A stretch of 35,215 bases of DNA from a virus, in the IMG/VR virus record IMGVR_UViG_3300028920_000177, positions 1 to 35,215 of that record; one strand, written 5' to 3'. The notes below the pieces were generated by a model. The model searched no databases. It saw nothing but the letters and a program-made list of their open reading frames with translations, and was not told where the DNA came from. Each line of letters opens with the position of its first letter. The stretch's first letter is position 1. Shown piece after piece: positions 3,356-20,200 of this stretch. Made by a program: the position numbers and the translations under genes.

Positions 3356-3937
3356 ATGATCCCATATCAAAAAGAGCGGATCGAGAACGCTATTTGTTTT
3401 TTTGCCTCCGAGCATCAGAAACGAAGCGAGAAACCTGCCTTCCAGACTTTTATTTACAAATATTTAGCCATGCTTGATTTTTTGAGTATTGAAGAAACAG
3501 GTCAGCCAGTGCTTGGTTTGAACTATGTTGCCCTCAAAAGAGGACCTGTACCAGAGGAAATTTACTTCGAAAAGAAGTTTATGAAATCAGACCTTTACGA
3601 GTTTGAAAAATGCGATTTGCGAAATAGTGAAGCCCCAAATATTAGGATTGTTAGCACAAAAAAAGACCCCGACATGAGCTATTTTTCAAAAAACGAAATT
3701 ACGATGATGGAGAAAATCTTAGGTAAGTATGCAAAGCCCCATATTGTTACAGAAGTGGTCAACAACGCAAGTCATAGCATAAGGGCTTATGAGATTGCAT
3801 GGAAGTCCCGGGGAAATAAAAAATGTTCCCAAATGAGATATGGCGATATGTTTAAAGGTGTTGAAGATAAATCTGTTAGCGAGATGAGCTTTGCAGAGGA
3901 GAACTTTTTACTTTATTCCACTTTAGAGGATTGTTAA
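3356..3937 (+). CDS. Panacea/SocA-like (DUF4065) putative antitoxin
   Basis: The 193-residue protein matches the Panacea domain (DUF4065, SocA-like), a small helical domain that neutralises many unrelated toxins. The match is in residues about 29-70: an N-terminal helix with KYLAMLDFLS, then GLNYVALKRGPVPEEIY, which fits the family's Y-x-A-x-x-x-GPV signature. A C-terminal segment with MRYGDMFKG would be the accessory part. It is the first gene of a two-gene operon with its own promoter and operator, 2 nt before the next gene. Base composition is clearly richer in A+T than the flanking phage genes, which suggests recent acquisition. The antitoxin role is family knowledge; no toxicity has been seen here. 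Confidence 0.7.
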   Translation: MIPYQKERIENAICFFASEHQKRSEKPAFQTFIYKYLAMLDFLSIEETGQPVLGLNYVALKRGPVPEEIYFEKKFMKSDLYEFEKCDLRNSEAPNIRIVSTKKDPDMSYFSKNEITMMEKILGKYAKPHIVTEVVNNASHSIRAYEIAWKSRGNKKCSQMRYGDMFKGVEDKSVSEMSFAEENFLLYSTLEDC

Positions 3938-3939
3938 TA

Positions 3940-4386
3940 ATGGAGGTTGGAGATGTCTTTGTCTGCTCCCAGTTTGATGACATAGATATCTCTGACAAAG
4001 AAAAGCCAAGATGGTGGTGCATTTATCTAGGGGAGTCCAGCCAGCTGGATTCCCCTTCTATATTCTGTTATTTCCACACTACTACAACCCAAATGGACCA
4101 TTATGCAACAGGAGGAAATAGAGAACACCATCAAATTATGGAAATTAGTGCAGGTCAGTGGGGGTTTGAGCAGGATTGTCTTATTGATTTTTGTAACCGG
4201 CCTTTTTCAAAAGCCCCGAGTTTTTTTCAAGAAAAAGCGATCGTGATAAAAGGGAGAATACCCGAAGATGGTCTTAGACGAATTTATGACTCGATTCTGA
4301 AGTCTGATCACTACATCGAACGGATTAAGCATGATATACATCGTAGCTTTAACAACAGTGGAATATTTGGCCTAAAAAGACCCTAG
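3940..4386 (+). CDS. Putative toxin partner of the Panacea antitoxin, unrecognised family
   Basis: The 148-residue product starts at ATG 3940, where AGAGGA (3924-3929) is correctly spaced; a TTG at 3931 is too close to that site. The N-terminal part reads MEVGDVFVCSQF, then KPRWWCIYLGES and SIFCYFHTTTT, alternating strands that recall the small beta-barrel of MazF/PemK-like proteins (GDV start, K/R-P-W turn, hydrophobic strand). The rest (about 85-148) is mixed, with a basic helical C terminus. I do not recognise a toxin family with certainty. Position right after a Panacea gene, a 2-nt gap and shared A+T richness make it the likely toxin. It could instead be an accessory regulator. Confidence 0.5.
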   Translation: MEVGDVFVCSQFDDIDISDKEKPRWWCIYLGESSQLDSPSIFCYFHTTTTQMDHYATGGNREHHQIMEISAGQWGFEQDCLIDFCNRPFSKAPSFFQEKAIVIKGRIPEDGLRRIYDSILKSDHYIERIKHDIHRSFNNSGIFGLKRP

Positions 4387-4420
4387 GATTTGCAACAAGG
4401 TTTTTACCAGTGGCAAATAT

Positions 4421-5005
4421 CTACAGCTTCATCCCCCGATACACGCTGTCCTTGTCTTCCCGTTTTATCCCTATATACCTTAGCGTTACGGCCTGTGATT
4501 CATGGTTGAAGATGTCCTGAATGACCAGGATGTCGACGCCGGATTTGTAGGCGTGGTACCCGAAGGTCTTCCGGAGGGTGTGTGTGCCTATCCTTTCGTC
4601 TATTCCTACCCTTTCCGCCGCCTGGCGGATTATTCTGTAGGCCTGAACACGGGAGATCGGCTTCTTCCCCCCGGCTGCTTTGCGGGATGGGAAGAGCGGG
4701 TCTTCGAGGTCTAGTGATGCTCTCCGAAGATATTCCCCAAGGGCTGAACGAACCGTGGTGTTGAGTACGAAGTCCTTTACCTTGTTTGTCTTTTCCTCCC
4801 GCAGCGAGACCCTTTCGGCGATCCTTGTTCTTCCGTATTGTTCCCTTACAACATCGCCCGTTTTGAGGGCGAGTATGTCGGATATCCGCAGCCCCGAGTT
4901 TATCCCCAGTACGAATAGAGCGTGATTACGCAGGCTTTGCTTTCGAAGCAGGCGTTTCATGGCTTCTATGTCGCTTTTCTTCCGTATCGGCTGTACGTGT
5001 TCCAT
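4421..5005 (-). CDS. Small tyrosine recombinase (XerC/D-like), lacking core-binding domain
   Basis: The 194-residue protein is essentially only the catalytic domain of a tyrosine recombinase. The active-site set is complete: R40 (SGLRISD), a lysine at K72 or K75 in the beta hairpin, H142 and R145 (HTLRKTFG), H168 (FNHES) and nucleophile Y177 (RYIGI). The usual N-terminal SAM-like arm domain is nearly absent, and the protein is about 100 residues shorter than typical integrases. It starts at ATG 5005 with AAGGGA upstream; an open frame extends about 55 codons further without a standard start. It is antisense to all other phage genes. Similar small recombinases lie before terminase genes in many Firmicute phages, where they may resolve dimers. 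It is far from attR, so I doubt it is the main integrase. Confidence 0.85.
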   Translation of the reverse strand: MEHVQPIRKKSDIEAMKRLLRKQSLRNHALFVLGINSGLRISDILALKTGDVVREQYGRTRIAERVSLREEKTNKVKDFVLNTTVRSALGEYLRRASLDLEDPLFPSRKAAGGKKPISRVQAYRIIRQAAERVGIDERIGTHTLRKTFGYHAYKSGVDILVIQDIFNHESQAVTLRYIGIKREDKDSVYRGMKL

Positions 5006-13789: not shown

Positions 13790-13801
13790 GAGGTGGCGGC
13801 T

Positions 13802-14245
13802 TTGTTCAGAGACATAGCGCTGGAACTGCTTGCAAAGATTAGAGACGATGGGGCCGTCGCCTCCTGGTGCGCTGCCAACGGGGGCAAGCCCATTTCGCTT
13901 TTTCTCGGGGTGGGCGGTACGCCGGAAACGAACCCCAAGGCGGAAGACCTGCCCCTTGCGATAGTTACTGAAGGCACGGTTACCCACGGCCCGGCGGGGA
14001 GGCCTCAATCGGCGGTGATCACCCTGGGGTGGGACGTTTCGGTTACGGGGGAGACGGAGACCGACGGCATACGCGAGGTGTCGGGCGCCAAAGCGTCGGA
14101 AGAGCTGGGCAACCTTATAGCCGCGGCGATAAACACGGTGGAGCGGGAGTATTCGGTCACCTCGGTGGAGATGACGCCCGCCACCACGGGCGAATGGGCC
14201 CCGCGCTTCCCCGGCGTGATGATCGTTTCGCTGGAGTTGCGGTGA
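13802..14245 (+). CDS. Tail terminator protein (gpU-like)
   Basis: The 147-residue product probably starts at TTG 13802 and not GTG 13793, because AGGAGG (13788-13793) overlaps the GTG but is 8 nt before the TTG. The protein starts FRDIALELLAKI, then has several strands (ISLFLGVGG, PLAIVTEGTV, AVITLGWDVSV) and a helix (ASEELGNLIAAAI) with a final MIVSLELR. This alpha-beta layout and place after the gpZ-like gene fit a tail terminator, which caps the tail tube at the head end. The next tail gene appears only 5.2 kb later, so the operon is interrupted here. Confidence 0.65.
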   Translation: MFRDIALELLAKIRDDGAVASWCAANGGKPISLFLGVGGTPETNPKAEDLPLAIVTEGTVTHGPAGRPQSAVITLGWDVSVTGETETDGIREVSGAKASEELGNLIAAAINTVEREYSVTSVEMTPATTGEWAPRFPGVMIVSLELR

Positions 14246-14428
14246 GGGTTTTCGACCAAGGGGATGTTTGCCCCGGAGTGGGTATCTCCGTTTTGTCCAG
14301 GTTTTCAGGGAAAAGCATCAAATTTGTCAAGCGAGTTCTGAAGTCATTGCTTTGCCGATGTGAAGCTCGGGTTCTTGGGTTACAATTCATATGGATATTT
14401 GTCTTTGATCCCAAGACGGGGGTTTCCC

Positions 14429-15499
14429 ATGCGCAAAGTTTTTCGAGAGCCCAAATACCAGCGCTATGCAATTGCCAAATCTGCGAAGTTGATGCGCAGA
14501 CGAAATTCCCGAAACAAGCACAACAAGGCAGTACGGATAATCAGAAACCAGCCTGAAAGAGACAGATACAAGAGGGAAAACAGGAACAGGCTTAACCAAC
14601 TGCGGCTTAACAAAGCGAGGGGGCGAGAGGAAACAATCGTAGCCCCGAAAAAATTCAGCCTTATAGAAGAAGAAGAGCCTTACCCCACTTTTACGTTTTT
14701 TTCCCAACTGTGGGATTTTTTGTATGAAGGTTTTCCGGTCCTGCTGGACCTGAAGGATGTAGAGGAAATGACCCCAGAGGTTATTCTTTATCTTTTGTCG
14801 ATAATGGAAATATTCAAATCCAGAAACGCTCTTCAGGTAAGCGGCAATTGCCCTAAACATGAAAAATGCAAAAAGGTTTTTCAACAATCAGGGTTTTACC
14901 AGTACGTGCAATCGAATTTCAGGCAAACTCAATGGAACAAAGAAATATTGACAATAAGGCATGGGAAAAGCGTAATTGGAGAAATTGCAAACGAGGTAGG
15001 AGAATTTGCAAAATATCATTTACCGGAGGTGCCTTCCTCGGCTCTCAAGGCTTCGTATAGAATCTTGGCTGAGTGTATGGGGAATACCAAAGAACACGCA
15101 TACGCCACAATAGATTTTCCGGGGAACTGGTGGATGATGGCTTACGCCAGGGAGAACGATGTCCTTTTCTGCATTCTGGATAACGGCAGGGGAATACCTA
15201 AAACGATGAGAAAAAGGTTTGGAGAAAAATTTTACAGAAAGGAATTCGAGCTGATTTCTTCCACTATGAAGGGGGTTTACAAGGACCGATTCGTACGATC
15301 CTCTTCAGGGAAACGAACCAGGGGGAAAGGGCTACCGGCTATATACAGGCCGTATGCTTCCGGGATAATCAAGGATCTTACGGTTGTGTCGGGAAAAGGA
15401 TTCGTTCCGTTCGCGAAGGGGCAGAACCGAGAGTTGGAGAAGCCCTTCAGGGGAACTATGGTGAGTTGGACCTTGCCGAAGGGTTTCATGGGAGGCTAG
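14429..15499 (+). CDS. STAS-like/GHKL ATPase fusion, first gene of a four-gene cassette
   Basis: The 356-residue protein starts best at ATG 14429, with GGGGG 6 nt upstream; an earlier GTG at 14360 has no ribosome site. Residues about 10-70 are very rich in R, K and N. Residues about 100-162 form a STAS-like segment (FPVLLDLKDVEEMTPEVILYLL), also with CPKHEKC. The C-terminal part is a GHKL (histidine-kinase/Hsp90-type) ATPase: N box ECMGNTKEHA with E215 and N219, DNGRGIP (251-257), a GKRTRGKGL loop (294-302) and a final GTMVSW. No dimerisation helix with a phospho-acceptor histidine is seen, so it resembles a SpoIIAB-type switch kinase more than a sensor kinase. It pairs with the DUF4325 gene 4 nt downstream. 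Confidence 0.75.
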   Translation: MRKVFREPKYQRYAIAKSAKLMRRRNSRNKHNKAVRIIRNQPERDRYKRENRNRLNQLRLNKARGREETIVAPKKFSLIEEEEPYPTFTFFSQLWDFLYEGFPVLLDLKDVEEMTPEVILYLLSIMEIFKSRNALQVSGNCPKHEKCKKVFQQSGFYQYVQSNFRQTQWNKEILTIRHGKSVIGEIANEVGEFAKYHLPEVPSSALKASYRILAECMGNTKEHAYATIDFPGNWWMMAYARENDVLFCILDNGRGIPKTMRKRFGEKFYRKEFELISSTMKGVYKDRFVRSSSGKRTRGKGLPAIYRPYASGIIKDLTVVSGKGFVPFAKGQNRELEKPFRGTMVSWTLPKGFMGG

Positions 15500-15503
15500 T
15501 CGT

Positions 15504-15821
15504 ATGAAAAAGATCGTCATCGCAAAAGATTTTTCCGTTACCCCGGGTTTTCGTTACGAAACCGACGGCCCAAAATCGGGAGAAGAATTTCGCAAGAAAT
15601 TCTTGGAGCCGCTTTTCGAAGACGAAGAAAGCGACGAACAGATTTTAATCGATCTGGATGGAGCCGCTGGATATGCCACCTCTTTTTTGGAAGAAGTTTT
15701 CGGGGGCTTGGCCAGGAAATACGGAGTGGAGGTTTGTATAAGAAGACTTGAAATCAAATCCGATGAAGAACCATTTCTCATTGATGAGATAAATGAATAT
15801 ATTGAAAATGCTGGGGCGTAG
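15504..15821 (+). CDS. DUF4325 STAS-like protein
   Basis: This 105-residue protein is of the DUF4325 family. Residues about 45-75 have ILIDLDGAAGYATSFLEEVFGGLARKYG, quoted in parts as ILIDLDGAAGY and SFLEEVFGGL, which match the family pattern of a strand, a small loop and S-F-x-x-E. In STAS partner-switch proteins that loop holds a phosphorylatable Ser or Thr; here T58 and S59 lie at that place. GGGAGG precedes ATG 15504. It begins 4 nt after the ATPase gene and overlaps the next by 29 nt. Paired GHKL and DUF4325 genes recur in mobile DNA, but their role is not established. Confidence 0.8.
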   Translation: MKKIVIAKDFSVTPGFRYETDGPKSGEEFRKKFLEPLFEDEESDEQILIDLDGAAGYATSFLEEVFGGLARKYGVEVCIRRLEIKSDEEPFLIDEINEYIENAGA

Positions 15822-16431
15822 AGTTGTACCAATTTTTTGTTGTCTGACTGTTTTTGTCCTGGGGTTTGTCGTAGGTGTGGGGCGAGAAAATCTATTAAAG
15901 ATACCCGATTACTTTTTCAAAATGAATCTTGCCGAGCTGTTGAACTTTGCGGTTCCGGCTCTTACGGCGTTGATAGTGGCAACTATTGTCAGCGACAAGA
16001 ACAGTAAGATTTTGAGAAGAAGAGAGATTCTTGATTCTCTTTTGGCTAAATTGGGTGACGTTCTTGAGTCAATTGATTCGGAAGTAACAAAGTATCAAGA
16101 AACACATAGACAACAGGCCCAACAAATAAAATTAACTTCAGCGTTTGGCTTGCCCTACAGAGAAAGGCCTAAAACCGGAGAGATTATCTCTTTGTTGAAG
16201 AGATCCGGGATGCTGGTCGCTCATTTGGAAGAAGTACAAAAAGAGTTTTCTGTTCTCAGCGCATCATTTATAGGTAGAGCAAAAAACGATGTTATGGAAT
16301 TACGAAAATTGTTAACAGAAGAACCCTTCGGAAACAAGGCTATTCCTGAAGATCGCTGGAAGAGGTCTCTGACTTTGCTTAATTCTTTGCAGATGGGTAT
16401 CAGCAGAGAAAGAATATCTCTCTACAGCTAA
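15793..16431 (+). CDS. Two-helix membrane protein of the STAS/ATPase cassette
   Basis: This 212-residue protein has two probable membrane helices: residues about 11-31 (VVPIFCCLTVFVLGFVVGV in part) and about 45-66 (LLNFAVPALTALIVATIV). The rest is a cytoplasmic helical domain (about 70-212) with SKILRRREILDSLLAKLGDVLES and LRKLLTEEPFG. The start lies 29 nt inside the DUF4325 gene, so the two are coupled. No family is recognised. Two helices joined to a soluble domain next to a switch module fits an effector that acts at the inner membrane, but this is a guess. The base composition is A+T-rich like the rest of the cassette. Confidence 0.65.
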   Translation: MNILKMLGRRVVPIFCCLTVFVLGFVVGVGRENLLKIPDYFFKMNLAELLNFAVPALTALIVATIVSDKNSKILRRREILDSLLAKLGDVLESIDSEVTKYQETHRQQAQQIKLTSAFGLPYRERPKTGEIISLLKRSGMLVAHLEEVQKEFSVLSASFIGRAKNDVMELRKLLTEEPFGNKAIPEDRWKRSLTLLNSLQMGISRERISLYS

Positions 16432-16467
16432 TAAATTCTGGTTTTTGCAAAACAGTGAGGTGATTTG

Positions 16468-17010
16468 ATGGTTTTGGTTGCCGCCGCCGAAAGGGTTATG
16501 GACCACGGGTCTGATTTGTCTTTTTATCCAAACTCGTTTCTTGCTGCTATCCAAGGGAAGTCATTGGATATTATAGATATATTTCTAACTTTTTTGCTAT
16601 CCGCATTAACTCTGTTTGTTCTTTGGAAGCAACACAAATTACAACGAGTTTTGGCGCAGAAAGAACTGTTTGATTCTCGTTATAAAATCTTCAATGGCTT
16701 TATGACGTTTATTGATGAAATTATGTCTGAAGATGGTTTTGATGAGGAAAGGATGAATAAGTTCCGTCTTGACACTCTAGAAACGGTTTTTTTCTTCAAT
16801 GAAAATGATCAGATTGAAAGAAAAAAAGTGGAAGTATGGGAAAGAGCAAGAAGTCTCCTGCGTATTAGGGAAGGAAAAGAAATACCGTCTCTTAGATCTA
16901 GATTTGCTTATGAGGTGACATGCAACGACGAAAACACACTTCGTGAACAGTTTGGAGAAGTCCGAAATGATATAGAACAAATTTTTTTAAATATCATTCG
17001 AATCCAGTAG
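16468..17010 (+). CDS. Single-helix membrane protein with LFDSRY motif
   Basis: The 180-residue product starts at ATG 16468, 7 nt after GAGG in GAGGTGAT; a TTG at 16465 is possible. A membrane helix lies at about 36-53 (IFLTFLLSALTLFVLW). After it comes LQRVLAQKELFDSRYKIFNGFMTFI, which resembles the LFDxRYxxY helix following the membrane segment in a large group of small bacterial membrane proteins of unknown role. The C-terminal helical part is charged. It is the last gene of the cassette, 36 nt after the other membrane protein gene, and no further gene follows for about 240 nt. Confidence 0.65.
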   Translation: MVLVAAAERVMDHGSDLSFYPNSFLAAIQGKSLDIIDIFLTFLLSALTLFVLWKQHKLQRVLAQKELFDSRYKIFNGFMTFIDEIMSEDGFDEERMNKFRLDTLETVFFFNENDQIERKKVEVWERARSLLRIREGKEIPSLRSRFAYEVTCNDENTLREQFGEVRNDIEQIFLNIIRIQ

Positions 17011-17114
17011 TATCAAGGACGTTTCCCAAAAAAGACATGTAACAGAAAAGGGGCGTGCCGCAAAAACGCGCCTTTGGGTGATAGAAATGGATGTAAGGGT
17101 GTTCTTTCAGAGGC

Positions 17115-17158
17115 GGGGCGCGAGATGCGTAGCCCATCGGGAAGGGGCGCCCTTTTTT
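17115..17158 (+). terminator. Terminator of the four-gene cassette
   Basis: GGGCGC (17116-17121) pairs with GCGCCC (17147-17152) around an inner stem GATG (17124-17127)/CATC (17135-17138), and six T follow. It ends 5 nt before the promoter at 17164, so it separates the cassette from the regulatory genes. Confidence 0.6.
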
Positions 17159-17163
17159 GATGG

Positions 17164-17192
17164 TTGACACCAAAACGGACACATGTTACAAA
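17164..17192 (+). promoter_or_regulatory. Promoter of the regulatory island
   Basis: A consensus -35 TTGACA (17164-17169) is 17 bp from TACAAA (17187-17192), with TGT directly before it giving an extended -10. This is the best sigma70-type promoter in the window. It would drive the HTH, antirepressor and Rha genes, perhaps in the lysogen. The -10 lies in ACATGTTACA, nearly repeated as ACATGTAACA at 17035-17044. Confidence 0.7.
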
Positions 17193-17209
17193 AATGACGC
17201 AAGCAACAA

Positions 17210-17234
17210 GGGTGTGCCGCAAATAGGCGCACCC
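17210..17234 (+). other. Hairpin in the leader of the HTH gene
   Basis: GGGTGTGCC (17210-17218) pairs with GGCGCACCC (17226-17234) with one G-T pair and a 7-nt loop. It lies just after the promoter start point and ends 4 nt before AGGAGGTG, so it may regulate translation. A related sequence (GGCGTGCCGCAAAAA) occurs near 17052-17066. Confidence 0.55.
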
Positions 17235-17251
17235 GGCGAGGAGGTGTCAGC

Positions 17252-17431
17252 CTGGCCAATTTGCTTACAGTAACAGAAGCGGCAAAAAGGATTGGGGTTT
17301 CTCGTCAAACAATTTATCGGTATGTAGAGAATGGGGAGATGAAAGCCGTTCTTGTAGGGCCGAAAAAGGTGATGCGAATCCCCGAGGAAGAAGCGGAACG
17401 ATTGAAACCGCAGGAATATGAACCCAAATAA
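17252..17431 (+). CDS. Excisionase-type small HTH protein, probable CTG start
   Basis: A 59-residue frame reads MANLLTVTEAAKRIG, then VSRQTIYRYVENGEM and PKKVMRIPEEEAERL. This is the HTH_17/excisionase (MerR-type winged helix) fold: two short helices with T-E-A-A and Q-T-I-Y, then a wing. AGGAGGTG (17239-17246) is correctly spaced for CTG 17252; the next in-frame start, TTG 17261, is about 16 nt away and would remove the first residues. A CTG start is rare, so this is a point to verify. It is likely a DNA-binding regulator or an Xis-like protein for this island. Confidence 0.7.
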   Translation: MANLLTVTEAAKRIGVSRQTIYRYVENGEMKAVLVGPKKVMRIPEEEAERLKPQEYEPK

Positions 17432-17435
17432 GTAA

Positions 17436-17502
17436 GCCCTGAATGAGCTCTCCCGACCAAGAGATCCGCTCAAACAGGGCCCGGAACGGAGGAAGCCCTC
17501 CG
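17436..17502 (+). terminator. Two hairpins after the HTH gene
   Basis: GCCCTG (17436-17441) pairs with CAGGGC (17475-17480), and GAGC (17445-17448) pairs with GCTC (17468-17471) inside it. A second stem CGGAGG (17487-17492)/CCTCCG (17497-17502) follows. There is no good T-run, so these could be regulatory or a rho-assisted stop. They lie 4 nt after the HTH stop. The stretch to 17578 holds no gene, though TTGACC (17526-17531) then TACAGC after 16 bp is a weak promoter match. Confidence 0.4.
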
Positions 17503-17578
17503 CTATAAACGCATTTTATCATACTTTGACCTTTCTTTTCTTCATGCTACAGCCGCATGAAAGCGCACAGAGGGCGTT

Positions 17579-17600
17579 CTTCCGTGGACACGGAAGGAGG
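17579..17600 (+). promoter_or_regulatory. Hairpin abutting the ribosome site of the 17611 gene
   Basis: CTTCCGTG (17579-17586) and CACGGAAG (17589-17596) form a tight hairpin. Its 3' arm runs into AAGGAGG (17594-17600), the ribosome site, and seven T (17604-17610) lie between that site and ATG 17611. The hairpin would hide part of the ribosome site, and the T-run makes it terminator-like. Confidence 0.5.
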
Positions 17601-17610
17601 TCCTTTTTTT

Positions 17611-17856
17611 ATGCCCGAATGCAGGGTAAAGGAAATGACGGTAAGCGAAGGCGGCGACGTGGTGGTGGGTTTTCAGGACGGGGCGGTTCTGGTGGTAAGG
17701 GGCGGGCAGGTCGACGTTTTTTGTCCACCGGCGCTTGAAGGCGAAAAGTTTCAGGAGTTCGAGGCCTATGCGGATGCGGCAAAAACACATCTTGAGAGGG
17801 AATCGTTTCCCTGGAAGGAGGAAGTTCAATGGAACGGAAGGAAGTTGCGTCTATAG
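17611..17856 (+). CDS. Small protein of unknown function before the antirepressor
   Basis: The 81-residue product starts at ATG 17611 and begins PECRVKEMTVSEGGDVVVGF, with strands VVVGFQDGAVLVVRGGQVDVFC and a helical end (EFEAYADAAKTHLE). No family is recognised. It overlaps the antirepressor gene by 28 nt and may be coupled with it. Confidence 0.5.
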   Translation: MPECRVKEMTVSEGGDVVVGFQDGAVLVVRGGQVDVFCPPALEGEKFQEFEAYADAAKTHLERESFPWKEEVQWNGRKLRL

Positions 17857-18620
17857 AAAGAACGGAACTGATGCCGAGGGTGTTCGACTTCGAGAAAAAC
17901 GAGGTGCGGATACTGCTGGGCAAAGACGGAGAACCGTGGTTTGTGGCCAAGGATGTTGCGACGATTCTAGGGTATCTCCGGCCAGAGAACGCGGTAGCCG
18001 TGCATTGCCGGGCCAAGGAAAAGTACAATCTGGGTTACTCCCCGAATCAGGGAGGAACCCCGATTGTAACGATAATCCCCGAGCGAGACGTTTACCGCCT
18101 GATAATGCGGTCGAAGCTTCCATCGGCTGAACGTTTCGAGGAATGGGTAGTGGGAGAAGTATTGCCCGGCATCAGGAAGACGGGGCATTTCTCGATAGAG
18201 GAAGTCGGGCGCAAGGACCTGGCGCTGATGATCATACAGGCCGAAGAAGAACTTGAAGCGACAAGGGGGCAGGTAAAGCGGCTTGCTCCCAAGGCAAAGG
18301 CGTGGGACGAGACGTGCGAGGACGGTACGGCGATGTCCCTTTCGGCGGCGGCGAAGGAGCTGAAACACCTGGGCGTAGGCCCCCGGACCATCTTCCGCAA
18401 GCTTTCCGAACGCGGCGTTATCTACAGGCTGGACGGCGACTGGGTGCCGAAGCAGGTGTACATGGAGCGAGGGTTTTTCAAGGTTACGCGGGTGAACGTG
18501 GTTATAGACGGCGAGCCCCGAAGCCACAGCAAGACGCTGGTTACGCCCAAGGGGCGCGATTTTCTGGTGAGGATGCTTTCGCCCTGGGACGCCGAGGGAC
18601 GGGAGGTAATAAACATATGA
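17829..18620 (+). CDS. Phage antirepressor, Bro-N plus KilAC/ANT domain
   Basis: This 263-residue protein has a Bro-N domain (about 15-115): VRILLGKDGEPWFVAKDVATILGY and the conserved ERFEEWVVGEVLPGIRKTGHF, split here as EEWVVGEVLPGIRKTG. The C-terminal KilAC domain (about 160-260) has MSLSAAAKELKHLGVGPRTIFRKL and LVTPKGRDFLV. Antirepressors of this type bind the phage repressor to allow induction. AAGGAGG is 7 nt upstream of ATG 17829. It sits in the tail operon, far from the usual immunity region, and overlaps the next regulator by 4 nt. Confidence 0.9.
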   Translation: MERKEVASIERTELMPRVFDFEKNEVRILLGKDGEPWFVAKDVATILGYLRPENAVAVHCRAKEKYNLGYSPNQGGTPIVTIIPERDVYRLIMRSKLPSAERFEEWVVGEVLPGIRKTGHFSIEEVGRKDLALMIIQAEEELEATRGQVKRLAPKAKAWDETCEDGTAMSLSAAAKELKHLGVGPRTIFRKLSERGVIYRLDGDWVPKQVYMERGFFKVTRVNVVIDGEPRSHSKTLVTPKGRDFLVRMLSPWDAEGREVINI

Positions 18621-19357
18621 GCGATATGCAGGCTTCGCTTGGAGTAGTGGTACGGGACGAGAAGGCAGTAGTGTCGAGCAGGGATGTTGCGAGGATCTTT
18701 GAAAAAACGCACGGAATTGTGACGAGAAGCATAAGGGACCTAATCAGTAAATGCAGCCCGGAATTCGGTCAGCTCAATTTTGCATTAACCACCTTTAACG
18801 ATTCACAGAATAGAGAACAAGAGGAATTCCTTTTGTCGAAAGACGGATTTGTCCTTTTGGCAATGGGTTACACCGGCGAAAAGGCTATGAAATTCAAAGA
18901 AGCATATATCGCCGAATTCAACCGGATGGAGGACATCCTCCGCAGGGGGGACCTGGACGCCAGGGCGTGGAGAAAGCTTGCGGTGCACGACCGCAATTCG
19001 CGCGCGAGATCGGCGGCCCTGCTAATCAACACCTTGCGGCTTTTGGGCGACGCGCTTTCGGCGCCGTCGAAGCAGGTGGTAGCCAGCGAAATGACGGTAT
19101 TGCTCTGCGGGAAGAGGCTGATAGAACTTCCCCCGGTGAAGAAGTCGTTCACCGCTACGGAGATAGCCGCCGAAGCAGGGGTTTCGGCATGGAAGGTGGG
19201 GCATCTGGCCAACCTGCACGATATCAAGACCGAAGAGTACGGAATGAGCATTTTGAGCAAGTCGCCGCACTCGGACAGGCAGGTGGTGGCTTTCATCTAC
19301 AACGAGGAAGGGCGCAGGAAGCTGCTGGAGATTCTGGCCAGCGAGGAGTGCGCGTAA
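18617..19357 (+). CDS. Rha-family phage regulator
   Basis: The 246-residue protein starts at ATG 18617 behind GGGAGG and overlaps the antirepressor stop by 4 nt. The N-terminal part is a pRha domain: VVSSRDVARIFEKTHGIVTRSIRDL (about 19-43) and FLLSKDGFVLLAMGYTGEKAMKFKEAYI in parts (about 75-98). A second domain (about 175-245) has FTATEIAAEAGVSAWKVGHLA and a KilAC-like end. Rha-type proteins interfere with infection or regulate phage development. Base composition falls in the middle (about 18700-18900), so the pRha part may have been exchanged. Confidence 0.85.
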   Translation: MSDMQASLGVVVRDEKAVVSSRDVARIFEKTHGIVTRSIRDLISKCSPEFGQLNFALTTFNDSQNREQEEFLLSKDGFVLLAMGYTGEKAMKFKEAYIAEFNRMEDILRRGDLDARAWRKLAVHDRNSRARSAALLINTLRLLGDALSAPSKQVVASEMTVLLCGKRLIELPPVKKSFTATEIAAEAGVSAWKVGHLANLHDIKTEEYGMSILSKSPHSDRQVVAFIYNEEGRRKLLEILASEECA

Positions 19358-19386
19358 TGGCCGAAGGACAAAGCAATAACGCCAGG

Positions 19387-19405
19387 GCCCGCCGATTCGG
19401 CGGGC
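19387..19405 (+). terminator. Hairpin between Rha and tail tube genes
   Basis: GCCCGCCG (19387-19394) pairs perfectly with CGGCGGGC (19398-19405) over 3 nt and is followed by TCAACTTTT, a weak T-run. It is 27 nt before ATG 19433. Confidence 0.6.
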
Positions 19406-19432
19406 TCAACTTTTGAAGGGGAGTGAAGAAAG

Positions 19433-20200
19433 ATGGGAACGAACGTAAAGAACCCGGTCGACATCATCATAGGAACCGGCAGGCTGTACGTGGACGGGGT
19501 GGACGTGGGGCAGCTCGACGGCGAGGTGGAGTTCAAGCACGCCAAGACCTACTTTGAGAAGAAGGCGGGCTTCCCGGCCGCGACTATTCTGAAGATTTTG
19601 CAGGAAGAAAGCTGCGTGACAACCGTTTCGCTGCTTGAGGCCAACCTTGCGCGGCTGCGAAGCATCATCGACGAGTATCCGGAGTACGTAGAGGAGGCAG
19701 ACACCGCATCCGTGGAGGATGAAGTGGTGACGGTGCAGGCCGCCAAGAACTCGATGCTGGCGCACGATCACCTGGCGGCTTCGGTAACGGTGACGGATTC
19801 GGAAGACGGCGCCCTGACGGAGGGCGTGGACTATTACCTCGACAGGCTGGACGGGCAGATATGCCGCGTGGCCACTTCGACGAACATAGAGGACGGCGAC
19901 ACGGTGAAGGTGAGCTACGACTACGCTGTCTACGACGCATCGGGGTTCAGTTTCGGCGGCGCTTCGTCGGAATCCACTCCCCACCTGCTGGTGTTCGTGC
20001 ACAAGCGGCGCGACGGGACATACCGGGTGCTGAAGATATGGAAGGCCAAGCTGGGCGGAGATTTCGTGCTGGGGTTCAAGGACAGTTCCGAAAGCCCTGT
20101 GGCGCTGGAGATATCGGCCGAAGCCGACTCCGCCAAGGCGGCGGGGCAGCAGTTCGGCCTGGTGTTCGATACGGAGACTCCGCCCTACGGCGGGTGGTGA
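19433..20200 (+). CDS. Major tail tube protein (gpV-like)
   Basis: This 255-residue, strand-rich protein begins VKNPVDIIIGTGRLYVDGVDVGQLDG and ends with ALEISAEADSAKAAGQQFGLVFD. That fits siphophage tube proteins of the gpV family: an N-terminal arm, a beta-sandwich, and an extra central part here (about 90-165) that has DGALTEGVDYYLDRLDGQI and may be an Ig-like insertion. AGGGGAGTG precedes ATG 19433. It is followed by the tail chaperone genes, so gene order supports the call. Confidence 0.85.
   Translation: MGTNVKNPVDIIIGTGRLYVDGVDVGQLDGEVEFKHAKTYFEKKAGFPAATILKILQEESCVTTVSLLEANLARLRSIIDEYPEYVEEADTASVEDEVVTVQAAKNSMLAHDHLAASVTVTDSEDGALTEGVDYYLDRLDGQICRVATSTNIEDGDTVKVSYDYAVYDASGFSFGGASSESTPHLLVFVHKRRDGTYRVLKIWKAKLGGDFVLGFKDSSESPVALEISAEADSAKAAGQQFGLVFDTETPPYGGW

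Follow-up and report, generated by a model that had tools for sequence, protein, structure and literature searches.

A kinase, STAS-like protein and membrane protein cassette in a phage tail operon: a possible membrane-acting sibling of VapKSC

Which of the A+T-rich genes that interrupt the tail operon of this phage belong together, and what might they do? The window analysed here is the whole 35,215-nucleotide IMG/VR record IMGVR_UViG_3300028920_000177 of a tailed phage, in which integrase, terminase, portal, capsid, tape measure and endolysin genes are present. The initial annotation proposed a four-gene cassette at this site, comprising a GHKL ATPase and a DUF4325 protein that form a partner switch and two membrane proteins that serve as its effectors, and regarded it as a possible new defence or exclusion system. 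The first two genes are referred to below as K and S, the two membrane protein genes of the window as M1 and M2, and third genes in general as M.

An accessory insertion between two tail genes

The features of the region are as follows.

13793–14245, plus strand: left flank, gene in the tail-terminator position (PHROG 17431), which adjoins the tube gene in relatives (50–65% identity)
14246–19432, strandless: insertion of 5.19 kb between the tail-terminator and tail-tube genes, missing from relatives
14429–15499, plus strand: K, 356 aa, with tail helices (residues 9–63), a STAS domain (68–155) and a GHKL domain (174–350)
15504–15821, plus strand: S, 105 aa, DUF4325 STAS-like protein with T59/S60 in the phospho-site loop
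15793–16431, plus strand: M1, 212 aa, putative membrane effector with a pair of N-terminal transmembrane (TM) helices and a helical bundle facing the cytosol
16468–17010, plus strand: M2, 180 aa, one TM segment and a cytosolic domain made of helices
17261–17431, plus strand: HTH_17 excisionase-like/regulatory protein (Pfam HTH_17, E 1.8e-11)
17829–18620, plus strand: BRO-N/KilAC antirepressor (Pfam Bro-N 4.4e-23, ANT 1.5e-22)
18620–19357, plus strand: Rha-family phage regulatory protein (Pfam Phage_pRha, E 4.7e-27)
19433–20200, plus strand: right flank, major tail (tube) protein (PHROG 807/2175), 70–74% identity in relatives

All four open reading frames of the proposed cassette are open where they had been placed, with a 4-nt gap between K and S and a 29-nt overlap between S and M1 (14 nt if translation begins at the in-frame ATG at 15808), and M1 is translationally coupled to S. 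The block is indeed A+T-rich. The GC contents of K, S, M1 and M2 are 45, 43, 40 and 37%, respectively, against approximately 60% in the neighbouring structural genes, and their GC3 values (0.34–0.52) fall below those of the same neighbours (0.70–0.81). A terminase scan of viral contigs recovered phage relatives with TerL proteins 73–79% identical to that of the window. In the near-identical pair L097 and L098, and in L116 and L103, the block is absent and the two flanking tail genes lie less than 40 bp apart, so the block is dispensable for the phage backbone and is not a fixed structural part of all related phages. Its location between the tail-terminator and tail-tube genes had been correctly recognised; its extent had been underestimated, since the insertion spans 14246–19432 and holds regulators too. 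K-S-M would be carried in this phage as a moron within the tail operon.

The HTH_17, BRO/KilAC and Rha proteins (17261–19357) make up a regulatory mini-module adjoining the cassette in the tail operon, and a 99-aa ORF also lies within the insertion. Two copies of the imperfect repeat AAAAGGGGCGTGCCGCAAAAACGCGC occur directly downstream of M2, at 17046–17071 and 17205–17230. Repeats flanking the insertion yielded no convincing element ends. Around the cassette in the window, counts of promoter-like and terminator-like sequences were at background level, with no clear promoter of its own, and an Rfam search returned zero matches. A second A+T-rich stretch at 3500–4500 (38–42% GC), adjoining the integrase gene (4421–5005, minus strand), is probably a second accessory region.

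The conserved unit and its distribution

A tblastn search with K found loci in a Marinobacter phage and in plasmids of Leptospira, Acinetobacter and Vibrio, and in all four of these a DUF4325/STAS-like gene comes after K, with a small hypothetical gene behind it. A profile built from a five-sequence alignment of S retrieved 80 viral loci. Of 84 loci, 75 have K immediately before S, and the start of the third gene falls between −56 and +24 nt from the S stop codon in every scorable locus (78/78). The third gene is thus coupled throughout, and homologues of K and S that everywhere lack a membrane gene, an outcome that would have undone the cassette idea, were not what the neighbourhoods contained. 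Across 54 loci, the pairwise distances of the three proteins are correlated (Mantel r 0.83 for K-M, 0.73 for K-S and 0.67 for S-M; p 2e-4), and K, S and M therefore travel together.

M2 does not share this pattern. Relatives of M2 (for which the ATG at 16468 behind GAGGTGA is a better start than the TTG at 16465) were sought in plasmids, phages, viral contigs and all fetched loci, and zero were found. The conserved unit therefore comprises three genes rather than the four originally proposed; M2 is ruled out as a fourth component and is probably a passenger outside the conserved cassette. The recurrence of K, S and a membrane protein as a co-inherited unit across dozens of prophages and plasmids with no relation to one another supports the idea of a partner switch with a membrane effector well, with M2 removed from it. 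Copies of K-S-M sit without annotation in plasmids and prophages from Vibrio, Acinetobacter, Leptospira, Marinobacter, Novosphingobium and E. coli, a host range based on those plasmid, phage and E. coli records that carry names. Single-protein scans of viral contigs with K and with the capsid protein gave no matches. A survey of Verrucomicrobiota genomes with the S profile, run without a positive control, was empty and thus uninformative, and the sole genome-contig match (L006) was a carbamoyltransferase-like false positive.

Some loci depart from the three-gene arrangement. In L023, L057 and L062, transposase genes adjoin S and apparently interrupt the cassette with loss of K, leaving S alone in L023 and L057. 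Two loci lacking K (L051 and L076) start at or near the contig start, L075 retains a K remnant, and K is also missing from L036, L059 and L074. In L074 (5918–7448), a lone DUF4325 protein precedes a 387-aa protein that has TM segments at its N-terminus and a larger C-terminal domain, a possible alternative effector. In L092 (2453–3175; Vibrio vulnificus), a DUF4325 gene with no upstream kinase precedes a gene for a 126-aa two-TM protein, and this locus is either a kinase-less variant or a remnant.

Predicted proteins and their relation to VapKSC

The description of K as a STAS/GHKL ATPase with a basic tail was upheld by profile, motif and model. Its match to Pfam HATPase_c (E 3.4e-5) falls slightly short of the curated cut-off, and the call is retained because the N, G1 and G2 motifs are invariant in 60 relatives and the fold matches. 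These motifs are of the SpoIIAB type (N-box E-x3-N-x3-H, G1 DxGxG and G2 RGKG), with key positions kept in 60/60 members; E215, N219, H223, D251, G253, G299, G301, T343 and W347 are all invariant in the same set. An AF2 model (pLDDT 86.5) begins with a pair of helices, followed by a STAS-like and then a GHKL domain. Its best Foldseek match is SpoIIAB (1til, E 7.5e-6), which also ranked first, weakly, in a profile search of the PDB. Ahead of the STAS domain, all 60 members carry a basic tail of about 48 residues with a net charge of +7 to +21. No HTH family was matched at the K N-terminus by Pfam, and the AF2 model has two basic helices there instead. On sequence and model, K is a candidate SpoIIAB-like kinase, and its conserved tail a candidate sensor.

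The DUF4325 identity of S is clear (Pfam, E 1.2e-14), and the proposed phospho-site holds with a shift of one position, the residues being T59/S60 instead of T58/S59. All 65 members have S60, and 64 of these 65 have serine or threonine at position 59. In a HMMER alignment to PDB 9z7o, assuming an 18-residue tag, Ser48 of VapS aligns to position 59. An alignment with SpoIIAA would presumably favour S60 as the acceptor position, and each of the two residues is compatible with the phospho-loop. Given the conserved residues and the homology, it is highly likely that K phosphorylates S.

M1 has two TM segments and M2 has one, in agreement with their description as membrane proteins. The AF2 model of M1 is all-helical (pLDDT 87.6), and M1 was recovered at E 2.2e-5 by a third-gene HMM built without M1 and its nearest kin. 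Of the third genes, 56 of 63 encode an N-terminal hydrophobic segment; the corresponding counts are 1/60 among K and 1/65 among S. Lysine and arginine are enriched past the TM segment in 58 of 63, which by the positive-inside rule places the helical bundle on the cytosolic side. The third-gene products are 141–213 aa long with a mean column identity of 13%, and a PIN domain was found in none of the 63. A fold search with the M1 model returned nothing better than generic four-helix bundles, and the effector activity of M1 can therefore not be named. A match of M1 to the PADLOC model LeoBC (E 0.0019) and other weak Pfam and PADLOC matches of third genes were rejected as not reproducible across members.

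The closest CHARACTERISED system to K-S-M is VapKSC, in which the PIN toxin VapC is released once the kinase VapK has phosphorylated the STAS antitoxin VapS (Chambers et al., EMBO J 2026; PMC13373217). That system gives about 2-log protection against phage Bas42, for which the phospho-site of the S protein is required (PMC13373217). Plasmid P5 of Deinococcus gobiensis (L089, 1518–3364) carries genes for an ATP-binding protein, a DUF4325 protein and a PIN protein in this order and is a vapKSC locus. Comparison by hhalign of K with its VapK (E 9.5e-10 over 244 columns, covering STAS and GHKL) and of S with its VapS (E 1.2e-7) indicates homology, and the experimentally studied VapS is a DUF4325 protein too (Pfam, E 6e-18). 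The main text of the VapKSC study mentions neither a membrane third gene nor DUF4325 (PMC13373217). Both systems are mobile and defence-associated, share the gene order kinase-STAS-effector and a Ser/Thr in the STAS acceptor loop, and have a STAS+GHKL kinase with no N-terminal HTH. They differ in the third gene, which encodes a PIN nuclease in VapKSC and a TM protein in K-S-M, in the basic N-terminal tail of K, which is not seen in D. gobiensis VapK, and in S, which has a strong signature of its own (R17, SGExFR and GYGSSFLEEAFGGL). K-S-M thus falls outside VapKSC proper, because its third gene is never a PIN, the defining toxin of that system. The initial remark that no described system of such composition was known calls for revision: K-S-M is a variant of a described kind, since its K/S half is homologous to VapK/VapS. 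Judged by sequence, it looks like a membrane-acting sibling of VapKSC. The PADLOC DrmA model also picks up the D. gobiensis kinase (E 1.4e-10), perhaps because this kinase has a GHKL fold, and a scan with a VapS alignment found one lone VapS-like gene.

A conserved aromatic residue, F54 in VapK and W68 in CapK, is proposed to stack on ssDNA (PMC13373217). At the putatively equivalent position, K has E in the window, and its relatives have S, Y, Q or others; the equivalence is not anchored on the Escherichia VapK sequence. Because no aromatic is conserved at the aligned position, the trigger of K-S-M may differ from the ssDNA of VapK/CapK. With SpoIIAB/SpoIIAA and RsbW/RsbV, K-S-M has in common the GHKL Ser/Thr-kinase fold, the N-box Glu/Asn/His and a small STAS substrate with a loop serine. 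Unlike these pairs, K-S-M has no recurring sigma factor in its cassettes, its kinase is a fusion that includes a STAS-like domain and a basic tail, and its third component is a membrane protein.

Genomic context and possible function

In ten loci the cassette adjoins a P2-like portal gene, with gpA detected on the opposite side in most. This site is the gpA-gpQ hotspot for defence genes described by Rousset et al. (2022; PMC9122126), and the K tree indicates at least two independent entries into it. A match to a CI-like repressor is present in seventeen loci, mostly directly upstream of K on the same strand. Plasmid copies of K-S-M sit among toxin-antitoxin genes. Few immediate neighbours are known defence genes, some restriction-modification genes being among them, and PADLOC models gave no convincing match to K, S or M, including those of the E. 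coli K-S-M. For this hotspot, Rousset et al. report that several tested systems defended against phage, and that non-defence genes such as partition systems are also housed there (PMC9122126). They also describe an unnamed three-gene system from the hotspot, with no clear domains, that is active against phage P1 (PMC9122126). Three genes and the gpA-gpQ hotspot are both common to this system and K-S-M. If the two are the same, defence would already have been shown for one E. coli member, and the novelty here lies in the explanation.

The hotspot and the adjacency of the CI repressor point to defence as the purpose of K-S-M, and we consider this probable. K and S very probably control the membrane protein M. 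By analogy with VapS and VapC, it is likely that S restrains M, and the balance tips slightly towards M harming or arresting the cell at the membrane. The reading we favour, with reasonable though limited confidence, is that K-S-M is a VapKSC-like kinase-STAS switch with a membrane effector, serving as a prophage-borne abortive defence. From homology and context we infer the following course, from signal and phosphorylation through S-M binding and M toxicity to anti-phage activity. In the quiet state, S would be bound to the cytosolic helical bundle of M and M would be inactive. On a stress or infection signal, K with ATP would phosphorylate S in the T59/S60 loop. Phosphorylated S would release M, which would act at the inner membrane by depolarisation, permeabilisation or growth arrest, and the infected lysogen would halt before the competing phage finishes its cycle. 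Counting against a defence role, the cassette of the window lies in a late tail operon and shows no clear promoter of its own, an unexpected arrangement for a defence gene expressed in a lysogen. A more far-reaching reading, advanced tentatively, is that K-S-M is a distinct and widespread immune family whose partner switch gates an effector that perforates the membrane or acts in membrane signalling, with the basic tail of K, not the VapK/CapK ssDNA site, reading a signal such as nucleic acid or membrane state.

An unlikely alternative places M on the input side: as a membrane sensor or anchor, M would recruit S or K and let them go once infection breaches the envelope, and the output would be on a host target outside the cassette, for example a host sigma/anti-sigma pathway. 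SpoIIAB-type kinases classically target sigma factors, M has weak fold matches to four-helix-bundle sensor domains such as Tar/PcaY, and the M of the window has no recognisable toxin fold. Against this, the gene order is that of VapKSC, in which the toxin is the third gene; M is small and fast-diverging, like effectors; and no dedicated output gene recurs beside the cassette. Quite unlikely, too, is a non-defence moron that alters host physiology or membrane state for the benefit of the phage, as a lysogenic-conversion, stress-response or prophage-induction timing module. Such a role would suit the late tail operon, the Rha/BRO regulators in the insertion and the presence of partition systems in the P2 hotspot; it sits poorly with recurrence beside toxin-antitoxin genes on plasmids and at prophage accessory sites of two classes, and with a closest characterised homologue that defends against phage. 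Very improbable is transcriptional control with S as a DNA-binding repressor of neighbouring genes and M as regulated cargo: the homologous CapK/CapS, likewise a STAS-GHKL kinase and a STAS partner with a conserved serine, do repress downstream immune operons (PMC13373217), but CapK has an HTH and CapS a defining wHTH whereas K lacks an N-terminal HTH call and S is a bare 105-aa STAS domain, and one membrane family follows S in every scored locus in place of diverse immune operons, with no CBASS/Bub-type operon behind it.

Should the switch-and-effector reading prove true, phospho-controlled toxin-antitoxin immunity, in which a kinase acts with a STAS antitoxin, would extend from RNA cleavage to membrane effectors, and the kinase-switch pair would be a reusable trigger for different effectors. 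It would also suggest what a DUF4325 clade might do, together with the unnamed kinases and membrane proteins that accompany it. E. coli D3 carries an intact copy in a P2-like prophage, at 3454640–3456518 of NZ_CP010140.1, arranged gpA-(two small genes)-K-S-M-portal, and its position in the defence hotspot would permit quick testing in standard strains. This P2-hotspot form occurs in 20 of 5426 E. coli genomes, and a second E. coli form, in a lambdoid-type prophage, occurs in 24 genomes.
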